Origin: Acetobacteraceae bacterium
Lineage (GTDB): Bacteria; Pseudomonadota; Alphaproteobacteria; Acetobacterales; Acetobacteraceae
DNA: 33,706 bases
Assembly: GCA_025352375.1 (NCBI GenBank)
Contig: JANXTL010000002.1
Coordinates: 1-33,706, forward strand
Reading direction: 5' to 3'
Both the position numbers and the translations under genes were made by a program. The notes under the pieces are model-generated. The model ran no database searches. It saw only the letters and a list, made by a program, of their open reading frames with translations, and had not been told where the DNA came from. This document shows, piece by piece, positions 1 to 9,264 of the stretch (its first letter is position 1; every line of letters begins with the position of its first letter).

Positions 1-1756
1 GGGGCTGACGTCGGTGATCGTCGGTTCCGCCGGATACGCGGAAAGCCTGGACGCGGGAGGGAAAGAACGGCAGCGGGAGCTACAGCGCGTTGCGGTTGAA
101 GAAAAAATCCGTATCGTCGGCCCCAACTGCAACGGCATCTACAACGCGCATCACCCACTCTCGATCGGTTTCAACACCGCCCACGCTAAACGGCAGAATC
201 CGGGCGGGGTGTCGATCTTCTCCCATTCCGGCGCGCTGTTCGACGCGATGGCGGGGCGGCTGGCGATGCTGGGGGCGGGATTGTCGCTGTTTGCCTCGGC
301 GGGGAATGAGGCCGATCTGTCGGTGCTGGACTACATGGAATACGGCATCGCCCACGCCCAAACGCGGGTGATCGCGCTGCTGATCGACAGTCTGGAGGAC
401 GGGCCGAGGTTCCGGCGTCTGGCCTTGCAGGCCCATGCGGCAGGCAAGCCCGTGGTGGCGCTGAAGATCGGCGGATCGGCGGCCGGCGCGGCGGCGGCGG
501 TGGCCCATTCGTCCCGCATGGCCGGGGATGCTGCGTCGTACCAGGCGCTGATGGACGCCAGCGGCGTGGCCACCGTCAAAACGCTGGAGGGTTTGATGAC
601 CGCCGCCGCGTTGCTCGACAAATATGGCCGGCATCCGGGCAGGCTCGGCGCGCTATCGACCTCCGGCGCCGGGGCGTCGTTGATCGCCGACCGGTGCGAA
701 GCACTGAGCGTCCCACTGGCGACGCTGTCCGACGAGACGCATGCAGCGATAGACGCGCAGAAAATGTTCTCACGGGTTGGCAACCCGCTGGACATGGGCA
801 TTTTTGGGGGCATGCGCCGAGCGGGGCAAATCCCGGCGTTGCTGATGGCCGACCCCGGCGTATCGGTGGCGCTCGGCCTGATGCACTCGATGAATCCCTG
901 GCAAGGCGACCCGATCCGCGACGCTATGGCCAAAGGACGGGAAATGTCCGGAAAACCGCTGCTGATCGTGTCCCCCGGCGGGATGCCGGCGTCGGAGCGG
1001 GAGTCCTACACATCTCGCGGCATGGATGTGTTCACCGAGACCGATATTTTGCTGGAGGGCATTGGCGCGATGCTGACGCCTCCTCCAGCCGCGATCCCCA
1101 CTGCGATGGCGGGTGCGGCGTCGGTCATGCCAAACCGGCAGCTGACTGAACCCGAAAGTTTGAACCTCCTGCTGGGCTTCGGCGTGCGTGGCGTGCCGAC
1201 GGTGGAGTGTCCGTCCCTCGCCCACGCGCTATCGGCGGCCCGTGCCGTGGGCTACCCCGTGGTGCTGAAGGGTGTCGTCGAAGGTGTGGCGCACAAAAGC
1301 GATAAGGGCCTGGTGCACGTCAACCTGACCGACATCGATGCGTTGGAGGCGGCTTACGTCTCCCTCGGCTGCCCCAACGTGATCGTCCAGAAGATGATCA
1401 AGGGCGATCTGGAGGCCATCGCCGGCGTGACCCGTTCGGAAGGCGTGGGCCTTGTTCTCCTGGCAGGGCTCGGCGGCATCTATGCCGAGGCGCTGGGCGA
1501 CGCGGTCGTGTGGCCCATTCCCGTCAGCCGCGCGGCGATCGAGGAAAAACTGGCGGACAGCGTCCTCGGGCGTGTGTTGGCGAGCGATCGCTGGCGGCAT
1601 GAGGGGGCGGCCAACGCGATGGTGGACCTGCTGCTGGCGCTTCAGCGTGCGGCTCTGGCCATCGGCGACCGGTTGGAAGCGATCGACATCAACCCCGTGA
1701 TCCTGGGTGCCGCGGGCGCCGTGGCAGTGGACGCGCTGGTGATCCCGCGCGCATGA
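1..1756 (+). CDS. NDP-forming acyl-CoA ligase (acetate-CoA ligase family), 5' partial
   Basis: The open frame runs off the left edge, since codons upstream of the GTG at 14 stay open; the N-terminal part of the CoA-binding domain is therefore missing. What remains (about 580 residues) has the layout of ADP/GDP-forming acyl-CoA synthetases. There is a succinyl-CoA-ligase-like flavodoxin domain with FSHSGALFD and GNEADLSVLDY. A second subdomain holds AHSSRMAGD, whose His fits the phospho-relay histidine of the family. The last third is an ATP-grasp domain with GYPVVLKGV, AHKSDKGLV and the terminal EAIDINPVIL. The reaction is reversible acyl-CoA formation coupled to NTP; the acid is not readable from sequence. 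The stop codon overlaps the start of the RuBisCO-like gene (ATGA), so the two are translationally coupled and probably act in one pathway. Confidence 0.88.
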   Translation, partial: GLTSVIVGSAGYAESLDAGGKERQRELQRVAVEEKIRIVGPNCNGIYNAHHPLSIGFNTAHAKRQNPGGVSIFSHSGALFDAMAGRLAMLGAGLSLFASAGNEADLSVLDYMEYGIAHAQTRVIALLIDSLEDGPRFRRLALQAHAAGKPVVALKIGGSAAGAAAAVAHSSRMAGDAASYQALMDASGVATVKTLEGLMTAAALLDKYGRHPGRLGALSTSGAGASLIADRCEALSVPLATLSDETHAAIDAQKMFSRVGNPLDMGIFGGMRRAGQIPALLMADPGVSVALGLMHSMNPWQGDPIRDAMAKGREMSGKPLLIVSPGGMPASERESYTSRGMDVFTETDILLEGIGAMLTPPPAAIPTAMAGAASVMPNRQLTEPESLNLLLGFGVRGVPTVECPSLAHALSAARAVGYPVVLKGVVEGVAHKSDKGLVHVNLTDIDALEAAYVSLGCPNVIVQKMIKGDLEAIAGVTRSEGVGLVLLAGLGGIYAEALGDAVVWPIPVSRAAIEEKLADSVLGRVLASDRWRHEGAANAMVDLLLALQRAALAIGDRLEAIDINPVILGAAGAVAVDALVIPRA

Positions 1757-2826
1757 GCGGTCGGCTTTCGGTCACCTACCGCGTGCGGAGCGACGCGGCC
1801 GGCATCGAAGCCCGCGCCCGTGGTATCGCGGTGGAACAAAGCGTCGAGATGCCGGTGGAGGCCATCGATGATCCGTCCGTCCTGTCCGACATCGTCGGGG
1901 TGGTTGAGGCGATCGAGCCGGCTGGCGAGGGTGTTTTCTCAGTCCGGATCGGACTGGCGCTGGACACCGTCGGCGCCGATGCCGGGCAGCTGATGAACAT
2001 GCTGTTCGGGAACACGTCGTTGCAGGACGATGTTGTGCTGCACGATGTGGACGTTCCGCCGGTGTTCGCCGGGCCTCGGCAGGGATTGGCGGCGCTGCGG
2101 TCGCGGCTTGGGGTTTCCGGGCGGGCTTTCACGGGTTCGGCGTTGAAGCCGCAGGGGCTGCCGGTGGAACGGCTGGCGCAACTGGCCGAGCGGTTCGCAC
2201 GCGGCGGGCTGGACTTCATCAAGGACGACCATGGACTGGCAAATCAGCACTACAGCCCGGCCGCCGAACGTATTCCCGCCGTCGCCAAGGCCGTCGAGCG
2301 GGCCGTGCGGGTCACTGGGCATCCGACACGCTACATCCCCAGCCTGTCCGGCGATCTCGACGCAATGCGGGCGCAGATGCGGCTCGCGCGGGATTGCGGG
2401 CTAGACTGTGCCATGCTGGCGCCAATGATCGCGGGGTTCGCGACATTGCAGACCCTGGCGGGCGAGTTCCCGGCGTTCGTGCTGTTCGCCCACCCGGCGT
2501 TGGGCGGGGCAGCCCGCATAAGCCCCGACCTGTTGATCGGGAAGCTTTTCCCGGCGTTCGGGGCCGGGGGCGCGATCTTCCCGACCTATGGCGGGCGGTT
2601 CGGGTATTCTCAGGACACCTGCCGGCGGTTGGCGGAGAACGCGCGGGGTTACGGCGCCCTCCCGATCCCGGCCGGCGGCATGACCCTGGCGCGGACGGCG
2701 GAAATCCTCGATTTCTACGGGCCGGACACGATGTTGCTAATCGGCGGTAACCTGCTCGCGGCGCGGGAGCGCATCACCGAGGAAGCCGAACGGTTCGCTC
2801 GGGCGGTAGCCAATCATTCTTATTGA
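1753..2826 (+). CDS. RuBisCO-like protein (form IV)
   Basis: A 357-residue protein with the RuBisCO large-subunit fold, shorter than true large subunits (about 470). The N-terminal alpha/beta domain ends near GN at 86-87, and the TIM barrel follows. Aligned by eye, Asn87, Lys132 (GSALKP), the carbamylation Lys157 and Asp159 (IKDD) are kept. The metal-ligand Glu is His160, the second Lys of KPK is Gln134, the HRAMH stretch reads HPALG at 247-251, and the loop-6 Lys motif is replaced by YGGRFGY at 279-285. Together these exclude CO2 fixation and fit a form IV protein. Known form IV members act in methionine salvage or in apionate catabolism as isomerases, decarboxylases or transcarboxylase/hydrolases. 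The overlap with the CoA ligase gene suggests a product passed to, or derived from, an acyl-CoA. The specific reaction is unknown. Confidence 0.9.
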   Translation: MSGRLSVTYRVRSDAAGIEARARGIAVEQSVEMPVEAIDDPSVLSDIVGVVEAIEPAGEGVFSVRIGLALDTVGADAGQLMNMLFGNTSLQDDVVLHDVDVPPVFAGPRQGLAALRSRLGVSGRAFTGSALKPQGLPVERLAQLAERFARGGLDFIKDDHGLANQHYSPAAERIPAVAKAVERAVRVTGHPTRYIPSLSGDLDAMRAQMRLARDCGLDCAMLAPMIAGFATLQTLAGEFPAFVLFAHPALGGAARISPDLLIGKLFPAFGAGGAIFPTYGGRFGYSQDTCRRLAENARGYGALPIPAGGMTLARTAEILDFYGPDTMLLIGGNLLAARERITEEAERFARAVANHSY

Positions 2827-2828
2827 CC

Positions 2829-2880
2829 GGGGCGGTCGTCCGCCCCAAATCGTCATGGCCGACACAAGGCCGGCCATGAC
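2829..2880. repeat. REP-like double palindrome between the RuBisCO-like and cupin genes
   Basis: Two adjacent inverted repeats lie just after the RuBisCO-like stop. The first has a 7-bp GC stem (2829-2835 with 2840-2846) and loop TCGT. The second has a 9-bp stem GTCATGGCC / GGCCATGAC (2852-2860 with 2872-2880) and an 11-base loop. The second resembles the ATGGCCGG...CCGGCCAT intergenic repeats common in alphaproteobacteria. It could stabilise or attenuate the operon mRNA. There is no U-tract, so a classical terminator is less likely. Confidence 0.6.
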
Positions 2881-2893
2881 TGGAAAGAAGCCG

Positions 2894-3355
2894 ATGGAGT
2901 CCGAGCAACCCCCCTCCCTTTTTCGCCCCACCGACGGTGGCTACCGGTGGGACGGCGTGCCGTACCAGCCCTACAAGCAGGACGGCAGCGCGCCATTCAA
3001 GGATATCTCCCGCCAGACGCTGTTCAACGATCCTTCGTTGGGCTGCGAGTTGCGGTATTTCGAGATGGACGCCGCCGGCTACTCCACGCTGGAGCGGCAT
3101 GAGCACACCCACGCGGTGATGATCTTCCGCGGCCGCGGTCAATGCCTGCTGGGCACCGAAGTGCGGGAGGTCGAGGAACACGACCTGATCACCATCCCCG
3201 CCTGGACCTGGCACCAGTTTCGGGCCTCGGGCGATGCGCCGATGGGGTTCCTGTGCATGGTGAACACCACGCGGGACCGGCCGGTTTTGCCGACCGAGGC
3301 GGACTTGGCGGAGATCCGTTCGGTGCCGGCGGTGGCGCGGTTTCTGGCGGGGTAG
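2894..3355 (+). CDS. cupin-domain protein
   Basis: A 153-residue single-domain cupin. The metal-binding half-motif is HEHTHAVMIFRGRG, and the second motif is LITIPAWTWHQF with its histidine. I place the start at 2894 because GGAAAG sits 6-12 bases upstream and because the longer frame from 2855 begins inside the palindromic repeat. Cupins of this size bind Fe, Mn or Zn and serve as small isomerases, dioxygenases or sensors; nothing here decides between these. It lies within the apparent catabolic operon, so a metabolic role such as a sugar-acid or keto-acid conversion is a reasonable inference only. Confidence 0.8.
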   Translation: MESEQPPSLFRPTDGGYRWDGVPYQPYKQDGSAPFKDISRQTLFNDPSLGCELRYFEMDAAGYSTLERHEHTHAVMIFRGRGQCLLGTEVREVEEHDLITIPAWTWHQFRASGDAPMGFLCMVNTTRDRPVLPTEADLAEIRSVPAVARFLAG

Positions 3356-3385: not shown

Positions 3386-3850
3386 ATGTCCCGCCCGCCT
3401 GTGCCACCGTTCATTGCCGAAACCGCCGCGCAAAAAGCCCGCATGGCCGAGGATGCCTGGAACAGCCGCGATCCCGCGCGGGTCGCGCTGGCCTACACAC
3501 CGGACAGCCGATGGCGCAACCGAGCGGAGTTCGTCGCAGGACGGGCGGCGATCGAGGCGTTCTTGACGCGCAAATGGCAGCGCGAGCTGGATTACCGGCT
3601 GATCAAGGAAGTCTGGGCCTTCCGCGACAACCGCATCGCCGTCCGTTTCGCTTACGAATGGCACGACGACAGCGGCCAGTGGTTTCGCAGCTACGGCAAC
3701 GAAAACTGGGAATTCGACGAAGCAGGCCTGATGCGCATCCGAATCGCCAGCATCAATGATTCTCCAATGGCCGAAAGCGCACGCAAGTTCCACTGGCCGG
3801 CCGGGCGGCGCCCCGACGAGCACCCGGGTCTTTCCGACCTCGGTTTGTAA
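3386..3850 (+). CDS. DUF1348 / NTF2-like (SnoaL-fold) protein
   Basis: A 154-residue protein with the features of DUF1348 proteins: an N-terminal helix with [10 protein letters not shown], then [11 protein letters not shown] and the Trp/Arg-rich [35 protein letters not shown] and a C-terminal FHWPAGRRP follow. The fold is an alpha+beta cone like SnoaL and ketosteroid isomerase, cytoplasmic, with no signal peptide. Members lack an assigned reaction. Start ATG at 3386 follows a GGAGAG ribosome site. Only 13 bases separate it from the next gene, supporting co-transcription. Confidence 0.82.
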
Positions 3851-3863
3851 GGACACGCAATCG

Positions 3864-4913
3864 ATGCAACTCACCTCCAGGACGTACGATGCCGAGGATG
3901 TCTGGGCGGTGCAGGAGATGTACCACGCCAACGGCTGGACCGACGGGTTGCCCATCGTGCCCCCGGTGCGGGAGGCGGTGGCCGCCTGCCTCGAATGGGC
4001 AATGACGTCACCGGAACAACTCATCGGCATCGAACCCGTGCGAGGCGTAGCGATCACGGCCGAGAAGCTGGCGATCAACGCCGTCATGGCCGGCTGCCTG
4101 CCGATGCATTTCCCGGTGGTTCTGACCGCGTTCGCGGCGATGCTGCAAGAACCGTTCCTGCTGCACGGGGCGACGTCATCCACCGGCGGCTGCGCGGTCC
4201 TGATCGTGCTGAACGGCCCCATCTGCCGCGAGTTCGGTGCCGCCGGCCGGTTCAACGCGCTGGGCAACAGCGACCGAGCAACGGCGGCGATCGGGCGGGC
4301 GATCCGGCTGGCGCTGATCAATATTTTGGAGGTCCGGCCGGGCGGCATCGACCGCTCCACCCTCGGGCATCCCGGAAAATTCAGCTTTTGCGTGGCTGAG
4401 GATGAGGACGACTCGACCTGGCTGCCGTTGGCCGAGCAGCGTGGGGTGCCGCCGGGTGCGTCCGGGGTGACGGTGATGGCGGCCGGTGCGCCCCGGCAGA
4501 TCATGAACGAATGGACCACCGATCCGGCGGAAATCCTGGAAACCTTCGCCGCCGAGATGCGCGCCAACATGCGGCATTACTCGTTGTACGCCGGCAATTA
4601 CGCGCTGATCGTTCCGAAACAACTGCGCGACCATTTGCAGGCCGCCGGCTGGACCAAAGCCGACATCGCCGCGCGTATTCATGAACGCGCGCGGGTGCGT
4701 CGTGCCGAATGGGCCGAGGTCGGCAAGGGCGCCGTTGTGCGCGACCGGGGCGAGACCGTGCATACCGCCTTGCGCGGCCCCGAGGATCTGCTGATCGTCG
4801 CGGCCGGCGGCCCGGCAGGGGGCTTCGGCGCCGTCATTCCGCCCTGGTTCGGCGGCAAAAGCGCGGCGGTCACGCTGCCGGTCGGCGTGTGCGTGGACTG
4901 CGAACCTTTGTAG
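3864..4913 (+). CDS. conserved 'TDGLPxVPP' protein, partner of the UGSC selenoprotein
   Basis: A 349-residue cytoplasmic protein of a family I recognise only by its N-terminal signature WTDGLPIVPPVREAV. Other visible landmarks are EKLAINAVMAGC, a Gly-rich STGGCAVLIVLNGP near the middle, and a C-terminal CVDC (a CxxC pair) three residues before the end. The start at 3864 is preferred over an upstream in-frame ATG at 3756, because the latter lies inside the previous gene and TAAGGA is positioned before 3864. The stop codon TAG (4911-4913) is part of the AGGAGG ribosome site of the selenoprotein gene, so the two are tightly coupled. The cysteines could exchange electrons with the selenoprotein; this is inference. 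Function is unknown. Confidence 0.75.
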   Translation: MQLTSRTYDAEDVWAVQEMYHANGWTDGLPIVPPVREAVAACLEWAMTSPEQLIGIEPVRGVAITAEKLAINAVMAGCLPMHFPVVLTAFAAMLQEPFLLHGATSSTGGCAVLIVLNGPICREFGAAGRFNALGNSDRATAAIGRAIRLALINILEVRPGGIDRSTLGHPGKFSFCVAEDEDDSTWLPLAEQRGVPPGASGVTVMAAGAPRQIMNEWTTDPAEILETFAAEMRANMRHYSLYAGNYALIVPKQLRDHLQAAGWTKADIAARIHERARVRRAEWAEVGKGAVVRDRGETVHTALRGPEDLLIVAAGGPAGGFGAVIPPWFGGKSAAVTLPVGVCVDCEPL

Positions 4914-4923
4914 GAGGCAATGA

Positions 4924-5466
4924 ATGGTTATCCAGGTTTTAGACCCTGCCAACGAAACGGCCCCGCCGTTGGGACGAACAGCGGAACGATTGGTATCGTT
5001 GGTTGGGAAAACCGTCGGATTTATCTCCAACGGCAAGGAGGGGACGAAGGGTTTCTTCGCCCACCTCGACCGCATGTTGCGGGATGAATTCGGTGTCGCC
5101 GACGTGATCTGGCGGACCAAATCCAACTACAGCGCGCCCGCCGGTGCCGCCATCGTGGCGGATATCGCTGGCTGGGACGTCGCGATTTCCGGGATCGGGG
5201 ACTGAGGCAGTTGCTCGTCGTGCAGTTTGCATGACGCCGTGACAGCCGAACGTCTTGGTATCCCGGCAATCGGTGTGATGACGGAGCGTTTTGCCAGCGC
5301 GGCGGAGCTAATGGCGCGCGTGCTGGGGTTTCCGGGTTATGGGTTCGCGACGATCGCGCACCCGATCAGCAGCGCGACGGATGCGGAGTTGCGTGCGATG
5401 GCGGCGGCGGTGATCGTTCGGGTGCCAGCGTTGCTGATCCACTACCGCCAGTCGTCGATCACGTAG
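4924..5466 (+). CDS. UGSC-family selenoprotein (in-frame UGA = selenocysteine)
   Basis: One continuous frame of 181 codons interrupted only by TGA at 5203-5205. Reading TGA as selenocysteine gives GIGD-U-GSCSSCSLHDAV, the hallmark of the UGSC (seleno)protein family. Sec94 is followed by Cys97 and Cys100. The N-terminal part has VGKTVGFISNGKEG, LRDEFGV and DVAISGIGD; after the motif come ERLGIPAIGVMTERF and FATIAHPIS, which continue the same fold. A perfect AGGAGG (4912-4917) lies six bases before the ATG at 4924. A hairpin with SECIS properties begins 10 bases after the UGA. The motif implies redox or thiol/selenol chemistry, but no reaction is established for the family. The 3' end overlaps the convergent GNAT gene by 25 bp. 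Without recoding, the product would be a 93-residue truncation. Confidence 0.9.
5203..5205 (+). other. UGA selenocysteine codon
   Basis: TGA in frame with both the upstream 93 codons and the downstream 87 codons of the UGSC protein. It sits at the first position of the U-G-S-C motif. Similarity to UGSC proteins continues without a gap across it, which argues against a true stop. Confidence 0.88.
5216..5236 (+). promoter_or_regulatory. bacterial SECIS element
   Basis: Bases 5216-5223 pair with 5229-5236 in eight consecutive pairs (one G-U wobble), closing a five-base loop AGTTT. The loop has G as its second base, followed by U, and starts 18 bases after the UGA. A short stem, a small loop with G in the first two positions and a distance of about 16-37 bases are the known properties of bacterial SECIS hairpins that bind SelB. 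The hairpin lies in coding sequence, as is normal in bacteria. Confidence 0.82.
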
Positions 5467-7052: not shown

Positions 7053-8579
7053 TCAGAAAAACCCATGTAAAAACCACCGCCTGTCCCCCGTCGCCGGATC
7101 GTCTCCATCGCCCCGGCGGAAGAGCCAGAAGCGGCGGCCTTCGTCGTCCTCGACCCGGAAATAATCGCGAACCGAGCGCATTTCGCCATCGCGTTTCCAC
7201 CATTCGCCGGCGATGCGTTCGGGGCCGTCGGCATGGCGCACGCGGTGGCGCACGCGGCGCCAGGTGAAGGCGAGCGGGGGATGATCGGGCAGCAGCGCCA
7301 TCGCCTCGACCGGTTGCGGCGGGTCGAGCAGCCGGATGGGCCGCGGCAGATCGGCGGGCCACGTCGCACCCCCCGCCCGTTCCAATGCTGGCACCCGCCG
7401 CACCGATCGTTCCGGGACGTCGCTTTCCACCGGTTCGTTGCGGAAAACGCGTGATGCGCCCAGCCGGTTCGACAACCGATCCACCAGTTCGGCGATGGGG
7501 GCCTCGGTTCGTTCCGCCAACGCGGCGGTCTGCGTCTGCGGCGCCGCATCGGTGCGGGTTACGATCAACCGCATCGCCTCGACGCCCAGTCCTGGATCGA
7601 TCCGTTCCAGTCTTTCATCCAGCATGCGCGCCAGATGGCGGGGGTCGCGGGATGGGCGGGCGGTGCCGACGCGGATGACGGGGATGGCGCCGTCCACCCG
7701 CTCGAACAGCAGATCGAGCCGGCGGGCACCCTGGCCGGATTTTTCCAGATCCCCACAAACCAAAGCGGTCAGCCGAGCGATGACGGCGGAGAAAGCGGGT
7801 TCGGTCAGCAGAGGCTCGACGAAGGTCAGGCGGGCCTGGATGAGATCGGGCGGAATGACCGGCACGATCGGCTCGAACACGGCGCCGGACAATTGATCCA
7901 GCCGGGTGGCGACGACGGTGCCGAAGCGGCGGACCAGGGGACCGCGCGGGGTGGCGGCCAGTTGGCCGATTCGGTCGAAACCCATGAGGTGGAGCCCGTC
8001 GCAGATGGCGGGGGGCAGGCGGAGGGCTTCGATGGGGCATTGTAAAAGCAGCTTCTCCCCGGCCCTCTCCCGCAAGGGAACAGGGAGCATCCTTGCTTGC
8101 TTCTGCCCACCTCCGAACCGTGCCAAAGCATGCGCCGCCCCCGGGGTATCCGCGATGGCCGCCCGCGCCGCCATGCCGAATGCGGCGAAGCGCGCGGTCA
8201 AATCCCGCAGCATCGCGGCCTCCCCGCCATGCAGATGCGTGCTGCCGGTGGCGTCGATCCAGATCCCGTCCGGCGGATCGGGGGACGCCAGCGGGGCGTA
8301 ACGCAAACACCAGGCGGCCATGCGGCGCAGCGTCTCGGCGTCGGCGTCCGGTTCGGCGGGATGGATCGCCAACCCTGGCACCAGCGCCTGTGCCTGAGCC
8401 AGCGGCATCCCCGGCCGCAACCCCAGCCCCCCCGCCGCCGCATCCGCCGCCGCGACCACCTGCCGCCGCCCGTCGCTCCCGGCGGTAACCAGCGGAGTCC
8501 CCTCAGGCGCGCACCCGTTGCGTTGCCGCAGCCGATCCGTCGGCAGCGTCGAAAACCAGATGGACACGACCCGTCGCAT
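7053..8579 (-). CDS. imuB: Y-family DNA polymerase-like protein ImuB
   Basis: A 508-residue protein starting MRRVVSIWFSTLPTDRL, the typical ImuB opening. The palm and finger regions contain VVAAADAAAGGLGLRPGMPLA, DGIWIDATGSTHLHGG and LPPAICDGLHLMGF. The C-terminus has the YFRVEDDEGRRFWLFR stretch common to this family. ImuB is a catalytically weak or inactive Y-family relative that bridges the beta clamp, ImuA and DnaE2 during SOS translesion synthesis. The start codon lies inside imuA (77-bp overlap). A repeat-derived segment around residues 165-176 is described separately. No dnaE2 follows; the ccdB gene is only 11 bp away. Confidence 0.92.
   Translation of the reverse strand: MRRVVSIWFSTLPTDRLRQRNGCAPEGTPLVTAGSDGRRQVVAAADAAAGGLGLRPGMPLAQAQALVPGLAIHPAEPDADAETLRRMAAWCLRYAPLASPDPPDGIWIDATGSTHLHGGEAAMLRDLTARFAAFGMAARAAIADTPGAAHALARFGGGQKQARMLPVPLRERAGEKLLLQCPIEALRLPPAICDGLHLMGFDRIGQLAATPRGPLVRRFGTVVATRLDQLSGAVFEPIVPVIPPDLIQARLTFVEPLLTEPAFSAVIARLTALVCGDLEKSGQGARRLDLLFERVDGAIPVIRVGTARPSRDPRHLARMLDERLERIDPGLGVEAMRLIVTRTDAAPQTQTAALAERTEAPIAELVDRLSNRLGASRVFRNEPVESDVPERSVRRVPALERAGGATWPADLPRPIRLLDPPQPVEAMALLPDHPPLAFTWRRVRHRVRHADGPERIAGEWWKRDGEMRSVRDYFRVEDDEGRRFWLFRRGDGDDPATGDRRWFLHGFF
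8052..8087 (-). repeat. REP-like sequence embedded in imuB
   Basis: On the + strand, CTTCTCCCCGGCCCTCTCCC followed by GCAAGGGAACAGGGAG matches the well-known intergenic repeat of the form CTCTCCC-GCAAG-GGGAGAGGG with a degraded 3' arm. It sits inside imuB, in frame, and encodes LPVPLRERAGEK. A related repeat lies at 26915-26953. Confidence 0.5.
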
Positions 8580-9264
8580 CGCAAGCCTCCGTTATCCATG
8601 TGCCGGGCTCGCCGCCCCGGCAGCGGGTCAGTGTCAGCCGCCAGCGCGCCGGCCCCAGCCCCGGCACCGACGGCGCGTGAGCCAAAGCGGGCGGGGAGGG
8701 CAGGGCGGCCACCCGCCATCGCGTCATCGCCGCCGTCGGTTCCATCAGGGCGGGGTCGTCGAACTGCCGGCTACGGCGCAGCGCGATGGCCAGCACGCCG
8801 GTTTGCTCCGCCGCCAGTTGCAACCGGCGGGAGGCAATCAAACTGAACCGCCCCGCGATTTCCCCCACCACGGCGGCAAGGCCGGTGTGGCGCAGCCCTT
8901 CCTCCATGGTGGCCAGAACCTCCTTGCCGGCTGCGGCGAACACGATCCGGTCCGGGTGCAGGCCGGCGGCGGCGAGGCCGGGGGCAAACAGATCGGCGTG
9001 CTCCATTGTCCAGAGGACCGGTCCGGTGAGGCGCGCGAGGATGCCGGCGGTCAGCAGCGCGGCGGCGGCGCCGTGTTCGGTGTCCGGCCCGGCGCCGGCG
9101 ATTTCGTGCAGCGCGCCCAGCGTCAGGCCGCCGTTCGGCAGGGCGGCGTCGATCTCAGCCGAACCCATGGATACGGTTTGCCCGGGGGCCGCGACCGGCC
9201 CGCGCTCGATCCGCGCGATCTGGGCGCGCAGGTCGTCCAAACGGGCGCGTTGGGTTGAGAACAT
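8503..9264 (-). CDS. imuA: SOS mutagenesis protein ImuA (SulA/RecA-like)
   Basis: A 253-residue RecA-like protein with the N-terminal LDDLRAQIARIE helix, MGSAEIDAALPNGGLTLGALHEI, a VLWTMEHADLFAPGL strand region and DRIVFAAAGKEVLATMEEGL. The C-terminus carries RWRLTLTRCRGGEPGTWITE. ImuA works with ImuB and DnaE2 in error-prone DNA repair. A LexA box covers the ATG, so the gene is expected to be induced by DNA damage. No good ribosome site precedes the ATG, which fits a leaderless or very short-leader mRNA. Confidence 0.9.
   Translation of the reverse strand: MFSTQRARLDDLRAQIARIERGPVAAPGQTVSMGSAEIDAALPNGGLTLGALHEIAGAGPDTEHGAAAALLTAGILARLTGPVLWTMEHADLFAPGLAAAGLHPDRIVFAAAGKEVLATMEEGLRHTGLAAVVGEIAGRFSLIASRRLQLAAEQTGVLAIALRRSRQFDDPALMEPTAAMTRWRVAALPSPPALAHAPSVPGLGPARWRLTLTRCRGGEPGTWITEACDATGRVHLVFDAADGSAAATQRVRA

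Follow-up and report, generated by a model that had tools for sequence, protein, structure and literature searches.

A UGSC selenoprotein and its constant partner gene: a likely relative of the selenium enzymes that split glycine and proline

A gene divided by an in-frame TGA in an Acetobacteraceae genome almost certainly, to judge from its sequence, encodes a selenoprotein of the UGSC family with selenocysteine at residue 94 (Sec94), and it is accompanied, here and in its relatives, by one partner gene, P385. The pair is, in our view, likely to be an enzyme with kin among the selenium enzymes that cleave glycine and proline. The model as a whole, in which UGSC is read with selenocysteine (Sec) and would serve as the GrdB-type Sec subunit, and P385 as the second subunit, of a reductase, has in our estimate a probability of about 60%. 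The features that carry the argument lie in one window, by which we mean the whole stretch of DNA analysed (33,706 nucleotides):

14..1756, + strand: acyl-CoA/acetate-CoA ligase-like gene, first of six in a row; its start may fall outside the window
1753..2826, + strand: RuBisCO-like protein gene (NCBIfam/Pfam), in a possible operon
2855..3355, + strand: cupin gene (Pfam), in the same possible operon
3386..3850, + strand: DUF1348 (SnoaL-like) gene, in the same possible operon
3864..4913, + strand: partner gene P385, 349 codons from the start favoured by homologues, with a C-terminal CVDC
4912..4917, + strand: ribosome-binding site AGGAGG of the UGSC gene, from the sequence, 6 nt before the ATG at 4924
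4924..5466, + strand: UGSC selenoprotein gene, 180 codons through the TGA, stop TAG (translation; PF24696 at 154.8 bits)
5203..5205, + strand: TGA read as selenocysteine, Sec94 (translation, TGA of homologues, conservation of the hairpin)
5206..5247, + strand: bacterial SECIS hairpin, upper stem 5216-5224 with 5228-5236, loop GUU at 5225-5227 (folding and conservation)

The label P385 was coined here after the 385-codon open reading frame that begins at 3756. The original prediction for this DNA concerned the TGA and included neither the SECIS hairpin, nor the partner gene directly upstream, nor kinship with GrdB/PrdB.

Reading through the TGA

Two open frames in the same phase, parted by TGA, had been the starting point of the original prediction, and this arrangement was confirmed: with TGA translated as U, the product has 180 residues and U94 is its sole recoded codon. 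The split-frame layout alone is no evidence, since the GC-rich window holds, across its six frames, 31 TGA stops with more than 80 open codons on either side, the TGA at 5203 being among them by its lengths. Homology across the TGA is what raises recoding above chance. The predicted family motif, U-G-S-C-S-S-C, begins at U94, and the family-like sequence claimed for both sides was borne out by PF24696 (UGSC), which spans residues 5-171 and scores 154.8 bits with the full-length product (cut-off, 25), compared with 48.9 bits for the 93-residue fragment alone. NCBIfam model NF041046 matched the product at 117 bits (E 7e-34; model positions 2-145 of 147), 8 bits short of its equivalog/naming cut-off of 125 bits. 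When the product was aligned with 56 homologues, D93, position 94, G95, S96, and C97 were invariant. On these matches the window gene is a further member of the already known UGSC family (PF24696, NF041046) of marine selenoproteomes, having the same motif, a TGA-coded Sec, and a full-length family match, and in itself showing no difference from that family.

The genome, a draft of 355 contigs that is 98.3% complete, also bore out the expectation of Sec machinery: it encodes selA (551 bits), selB (390), selD (300), and tRNA-Sec (74.7), all above cut-offs, with selA and tRNA-Sec sharing a contig, the latter 33 nt beyond the selA match. Three UGSC genes, including that of the window, are present in the genome, and every one of them contains a single TGA. 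Homologues continue past this codon, whether they are paralogues, genes of related genomes, or genes in partner-bearing loci, and sequencing error is no explanation because the identical TGA recurs in the paralogues and in distant homologues. A hand count across 193 related genomes found one TGA in 72 of 84 UGSC matches and none in the other 12; of the latter, five are full-length, high-scoring matches with TGC, another has full length but a weak score (41 bits), and the remaining six are partial, among them one that sits in a GRDB-type gene (G065:C70). Among the best 80 of at least 579 relatives found through P385, 78 loci have a UGSC gene, with TGA in 78 of 78; of the two misses, L110 ends 8 bases behind the partner match and L117 inside it. 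TGA-bearing UGSC homologues span many phyla. One homologue (L137, 9634-10116) has U-A-A-C in place of U-G-S-C and retains the TGA.

Starting at the UGA, 45 nt form a hairpin of -21 kcal/mol (z -3.29 relative to dinucleotide shuffles) with a 9-bp upper stem and a GUU loop that starts 19 nt behind the UGA. The bacterial SECIS model, as described in the relevant passages of a 2026 review (PMC13188914), has a G in the first two loop positions, a spacing of 16-37 nt, and an energy of -7.5 kcal/mol or lower, and the window hairpin agrees with these values. Conservation was examined in 82 UGA segments, namely those of the 78 loci (best 80 of at least 579; one locus with a second copy) and the three of this genome. 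Compared with the average of its own synonymous-codon shuffles, the natural segment folds better in 79 of 82 cases; the z values average only -1.35, with 56 of 82 below -1. The five inner stem pairs form in 76, 75, 76, 73, and 76 of the 76 distinct UGA sequences, with two-sided changes at pair 19-29 (T-A in 70, A-T in 3) and pair 18-30 (G-C in 42, A-T in 5), and loop residues G23-U24 occur in all 76; the outer pairs, which form in 43 to 55 of 76, lack such conservation.

Codon usage at the loop differs between UGA and Cys forms. Counting the TGA as codon 1, codon 8 is AGT in 16 and TGT in 6 of the 22 distinct UGA forms of this genome and its relatives; AGT makes up 12 of 294 serine codons in 11 window genes. 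In the five Cys forms read, codon 8 is TGC in every case and the SECIS loop sequence is gone. The hairpin contrast between the two forms is not a clean one, because four of the six stem pairs can still form in all five Cys forms, pair 18-30 in one, and pair 21-27 in three. At the Rfam gathering threshold there was no match within the window.

The miscalling anticipated by the original prediction is a real risk: the UGA form of UGSC on a Paracoccus plasmid has been annotated as two short hypothetical proteins, and the UGSC case illustrates how recoded genes are lost in annotation. On that plasmid (L184, 6360-8017 and 11332-13107) the UGA-coded UGSC adjoins P385, and selB lies about 4.5 kb away, a clustering that would render the Sec trait partly mobile.

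A constant partner gene

P385 ends ten nt upstream of the UGSC gene. Its 385-residue translation matched no Pfam family even at E 10 and no NCBIfam model, and 58 homologues scanned against Pfam and NCBIfam gave scattered matches only, each in one to three proteins. The pyruvoyl partners of the glycine and D-proline reductases, GrdE and PrdA, were candidates that these scans did not support; P385 showed likeness to neither, and any kinship with them would have to be very distant. Alignment of P385 with GRDB likewise gave no match.

In this genome each of the three UGSC genes is preceded, about 10 to 230 nt upstream and in the same orientation, by a P385 homologue. UGSC and P385 each occur in 50 of the 193 related genomes, and the two sets, compared by eye, are identical; in 398 genomes drawn from the phylum the two again coincide, in 5 genomes that include the window's own. 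Searched with the P385 alignment, GTDB contigs yielded at least 579 confirmed relatives; the best 80, which were analysed, range from Alphaproteobacteria to Chloroflexi, Acidimicrobiia, Binatia, SAR324, and Bacillus. Sheuella amnicola and Bacillus piscicola are among the carriers. A UGSC gene stands within about 2.5 kb of P385 in 78 of these best 80 and on the same strand in 76. No third neighbour is fixed, every other gene group appearing in at most 16 of 83 loci. Genomics shows the pairing of the genes, and their products would form a complex. Two loci have a tandem pair of differing P385 copies with one UGSC gene (G128:C14, 65248-67699; G182:C1, 4572238-4574632), which suggests a heteromeric form.

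The predicted structure of P385 is of high confidence (mean pLDDT, 93.3; pTM, 0.92). Its invariant residues include D27, C78, R145, N153, D163, K172, and E179, with C176 nearly invariant (349-residue numbering), and they look like those of an active site. The best Foldseek match was chain A of the two-subunit fumarase of M. jannaschii (E 1.2e-3); by VIA the fumarase (Z 6.1, 165 residues at 5.0 A) was tied with chorismate mutases. Fumarase, chorismate mutase, and cyclic amide hydrolase were accordingly set aside as kin, a Foldseek E of 1.2e-3 and a VIA Z of about 6 being in the range of chance.

Predicted fold and kinship of UGSC

The AlphaFold model of UGSC, built from 57 sequences (mean pLDDT, 90.0; pTM, 0.84), has five strands alternating with five helices in the order E-H-E-H-E-(U)-H-E-H-E-H. 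Sec94 lies between strand 86-92 and helix 95-110, opening the third helix. The nearest solved folds are receiver and Rossmann-like domains; in a second look the closest was a designed protein (VIA Z 11.0, 129 residues at 3.2 A), and Rv1626 scored Z 10.2 over 115 residues at 2.6 A. The fold is thus predicted to be Rossmann-like and not thioredoxin-like. A thioredoxin (Trx)-like fold had been supposed for the family in the passages of a 2008 study that deal with it (PMC2398784), but a Trx fold runs beta-alpha-beta and then beta-beta-alpha with the redox motif at the first core helix, and the predicted model disagrees with that order, casting doubt on the published assignment. Sequence searches of the PDB with UGSC, P385, and the GRDB alignment found no usable relative; the sole match below 1e-3, to a designed protein over 30 residues only, was set aside.

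A blind scan pointed to the selenoprotein B enzymes. When 57 UGSC proteins were compared with 18,950 NCBIfam models at E <= 1e-3, all 57 matched their own model, and otherwise only selenoprotein-B types appeared: GrdB in five (best E 1.3e-6), general selenoprotein B in three, GrdF in two, and GrdH and PrdB in one each. The window's own UGSC matched no GrdB model at 1e-3, NF041046 being its sole NCBIfam match, and no GrdB or PrdB model was matched at its cut-off over full length; PF07355 was absent from a Pfam scan of the same 57 proteins at E up to 10. In the reverse direction, 17 GRDB-type proteins of the relatives matched GRDB in 17 cases and UGSC in three (best E 6.4e-4), and eight other listed families were matched by one protein each. 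The UGSC profile reached 10.4 bits on the best GRDB protein, compared with a maximum of 4.2 among 1,700 shuffled sequences; the next two scored 4.6 and 4.3 bits and the remainder near or below zero, the top three being of one type. Direct comparison of UGSC with GRDB by hhalign was weak (E 0.017; probability, 2.6).

Wherever the site was aligned, the UxxC of UGSC fell onto the UxxC or CxxC of GrdB-type proteins. UGSC has a Sec-bearing domain in common with the selenoprotein B subunits of glycine, sarcosine, betaine, and D-proline reductase (GrdB, GrdF, GrdH, and PrdB; PF07355). In a full-length GrdB-like protein (L186; 365 bits, below its model's cut-off of 602) the site reads U-G-T-C-x-x-C, the pattern shared with UGSC being U-G-[TS]-C-x2-C, and a helix with E-x2-GIP comes next, just as in UGSC. 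The GrdB site is given as UxxCxxC in the part of the 2026 review that treats it (PMC13188914). GrdB and UGSC differ in extent, UGSC having only 180 residues and lacking the N-terminal half of GrdB. By these comparisons the window protein is a relative of GrdB/PrdB and not GrdB or PrdB proper, with the caveat that it reaches no GrdB model itself at 1e-3, that each such model is matched by just 1 to 5 of the 57 UGSC proteins, and that the scores of individual proteins are modest. The window's genome also holds a weak GRDB-family match (G000:C121:2439-2648), and relatives of that match such as L158 and L161 are probably selenoproteins with U-P-x-C.

Proposed reaction, alternatives, and neighbourhood

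In the model that we favor, the TGA at 5203 would be read as Sec through the adjoining SECIS and the genome's SelA, SelB, SelD, and tRNA-Sec, a step that is well supported. The product would be a single Rossmann-like domain akin to the Sec-bearing part of GrdB/PrdB, as sequence scans and the predicted model suggest, its Ux2C(x2C) site following the third strand of that model. UGSC would be the stand-alone selenocysteine subunit and P385, in the putative complex, would hold the substrate. By analogy with the glycine, sarcosine, betaine, and D-proline reductases, the selenolate would attack the bound substrate and cleave or reduce a carbon-heteroatom bond, and Cys97 would resolve the oxidized Sec; the same analogy suggests reductase chemistry for the pair as a whole. 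The reduced state might be restored by a CxDC tail of P385, a Trx-like domain fused to P385, or neighboring TrxA/TrxB. The reductant of the Grd and Prd systems is a low-molecular dithiol or Trx, and either may serve the UGSC system too.

Dithiol modules on P385 are consistent with such a relay. Across 79 rows a tail of the CxDC/CxxC type was found in 51 and an N-terminal Trx-like extension with C-x-T-C in 7; the relay has to be read with the caveat that 21 of the 79 have neither and that a trxA/trxB-like match occurs in only 4 of 80 loci (best 80 of at least 579 relatives). L108 was counted as a tail row, the CxxC behind its automatic "Trx?" label being chance, and L095 (tail out of frame) and L137 (U-A-A-C motif) were left out of the tree. 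The tree calls for two changes for the tail and one for the Trx-like fusion, from which we infer that dithiol modules were probably joined to P385 more than once. The genome's third P385 (L018, 15-1457) has an N-terminal thioredoxin-like domain (CPTC), which matched thioredoxins (best E 0.0034) and gave no match to the Pfam thioredoxin model. A third Cys at U+6 is present in all 51 tail rows and all 7 Trx rows, and the 10 rows lacking it have neither module. This correlation was rejected as evidence: it rests on two tree changes, a test by independent pairs had no usable pair, and it may stem from RNA pairing, because, within the hairpin, the U+6 codon has its first base paired to the middle base of codon 10, which encodes Leu instead of His in rows without the third Cys.

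UGSC might instead be a thiol-disulfide or peroxide reducer that keeps P385 reduced or regulated, P385 being the sole catalyst, a reading that we regard as doubtful. The UxxC site, the Trx links, the conserved C78 and nearly invariant C176 of P385, and the Trx-like fold suggested in the 2008 passages on the family (PMC2398784) would all fit it. Among eight plasmid loci read, five have Cys forms (two haloarchaea, Arthrobacter, Roseovarius, and Variovorax), one has UGA (Paracoccus), and two are fusions; the Cys-form pair has TrxB or TrxB and TrxA nearby in Arthrobacter, Roseovarius, and Variovorax. Against this reading, the fold predicted for UGSC is not thioredoxin-like, the kin found by blind scans are substrate-reducing selenoproteins, and a single partner in 50 of 50 UGSC genomes would be unexpected for a general reductase.

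It is unlikely that P385 is a hydratase, lyase, or hydrolase of the fumarase or cyclic amide hydrolase kind, with UGSC in a structural or activating role and Sec needed in some branches only. Chain A of the M. jannaschii fumarase and cyclic amide hydrolases resemble P385 weakly in structure, with scores in the range of chance, and the two fusions lend this reading some weight. In L181 (6314-8038) and L183 (6371-8056), on plasmids of Sporomusa termitida and Vibrio europaeus, a UGSC domain precedes P385 with Met-Gly-Thr-Ser at the redox site, and aconitase X and DUF126 genes lie near both. Such a fusion supports a physical pair; Met and Ser at the site make Sec or Cys chemistry impossible in that branch, and the loss speaks against a redox role there. 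In contrast, Sec is found at 78 of the 78 UGSC-bearing loci (best 80 of at least 579), which a structural role would not demand. Only these two were counted as fusions, since annotated genes span both parts; in one set, 14 frames that join UGSC and P385 were not counted, because the TGA is read through there. The 2008 study, in the passages concerned, reports UGSC joined to a conserved domain of obscure function, Unknown_1 (PMC2398784), and P385 may be that domain.

It is very improbable that this TGA ends translation or arose by sequencing error, which would leave a broken gene or two short proteins. In favor of this reading, open flanks of comparable length surround 31 TGA stops of the window, and the genome is a draft in 355 contigs; against it, two paralogues and homologues from many phyla carry the same TGA, the hairpin is conserved with its loop sequence altered in Cys-coded forms, and the full Sec set is present.

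Extending the preferred reading of a Sec-dependent two-subunit reductase, we tentatively propose, at less than even odds, that UGSC-P385 is a further widespread lineage of Sec-dependent reductive C-X cleavage beside the glycine and D-proline reductases, lacking GrdA, GrdC, and a known pyruvoyl partner, which would act in catabolic operons of soil, freshwater, and marine bacteria, take a Cys form in haloarchaea, and have gained its dithiol modules (CxDC tail, Trx-like fusion) more than once. As far as we have seen, the constant partner, the Rossmann-like fold, and the GrdB/PrdB tie are new: the portions of PMC2398784, PMC13188914, and PMC9312934 covered mention neither this fold nor a kinship with GrdB, nor the partner either, Unknown_1 apart should the two be identical, subscription papers and supplements lying outside that scope. 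The constant partner, GrdB-like site, and possible dithiol modules make UGSC a candidate two-protein enzyme that could be purified and tested.

The ligase-like, RuBisCO-like, cupin, DUF1348, P385, and UGSC genes follow one another on the + strand at spacings of -4 to 30 nt and may form one operon. Neighbors elsewhere vary, representatives of the commoner groups being ABC transporter, SDR, CoA-transferase III, acyl-CoA dehydrogenase, TctC, LysR, amidohydrolase, TauD, and luciferase-like genes. This variety would fit catabolism with more than one substrate, and the neighbors point to a possible role in organic-acid catabolism via CoA esters. The ligase-like and RuBisCO-like genes (14-2826) overlap by 4 nt, an unusual pairing that may hint at a pathway. 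Farther along the window, on the - strand at 7053-9264, lie translesion synthesis genes for a Y-family polymerase (ImuB-like) and an ImuA-like protein.
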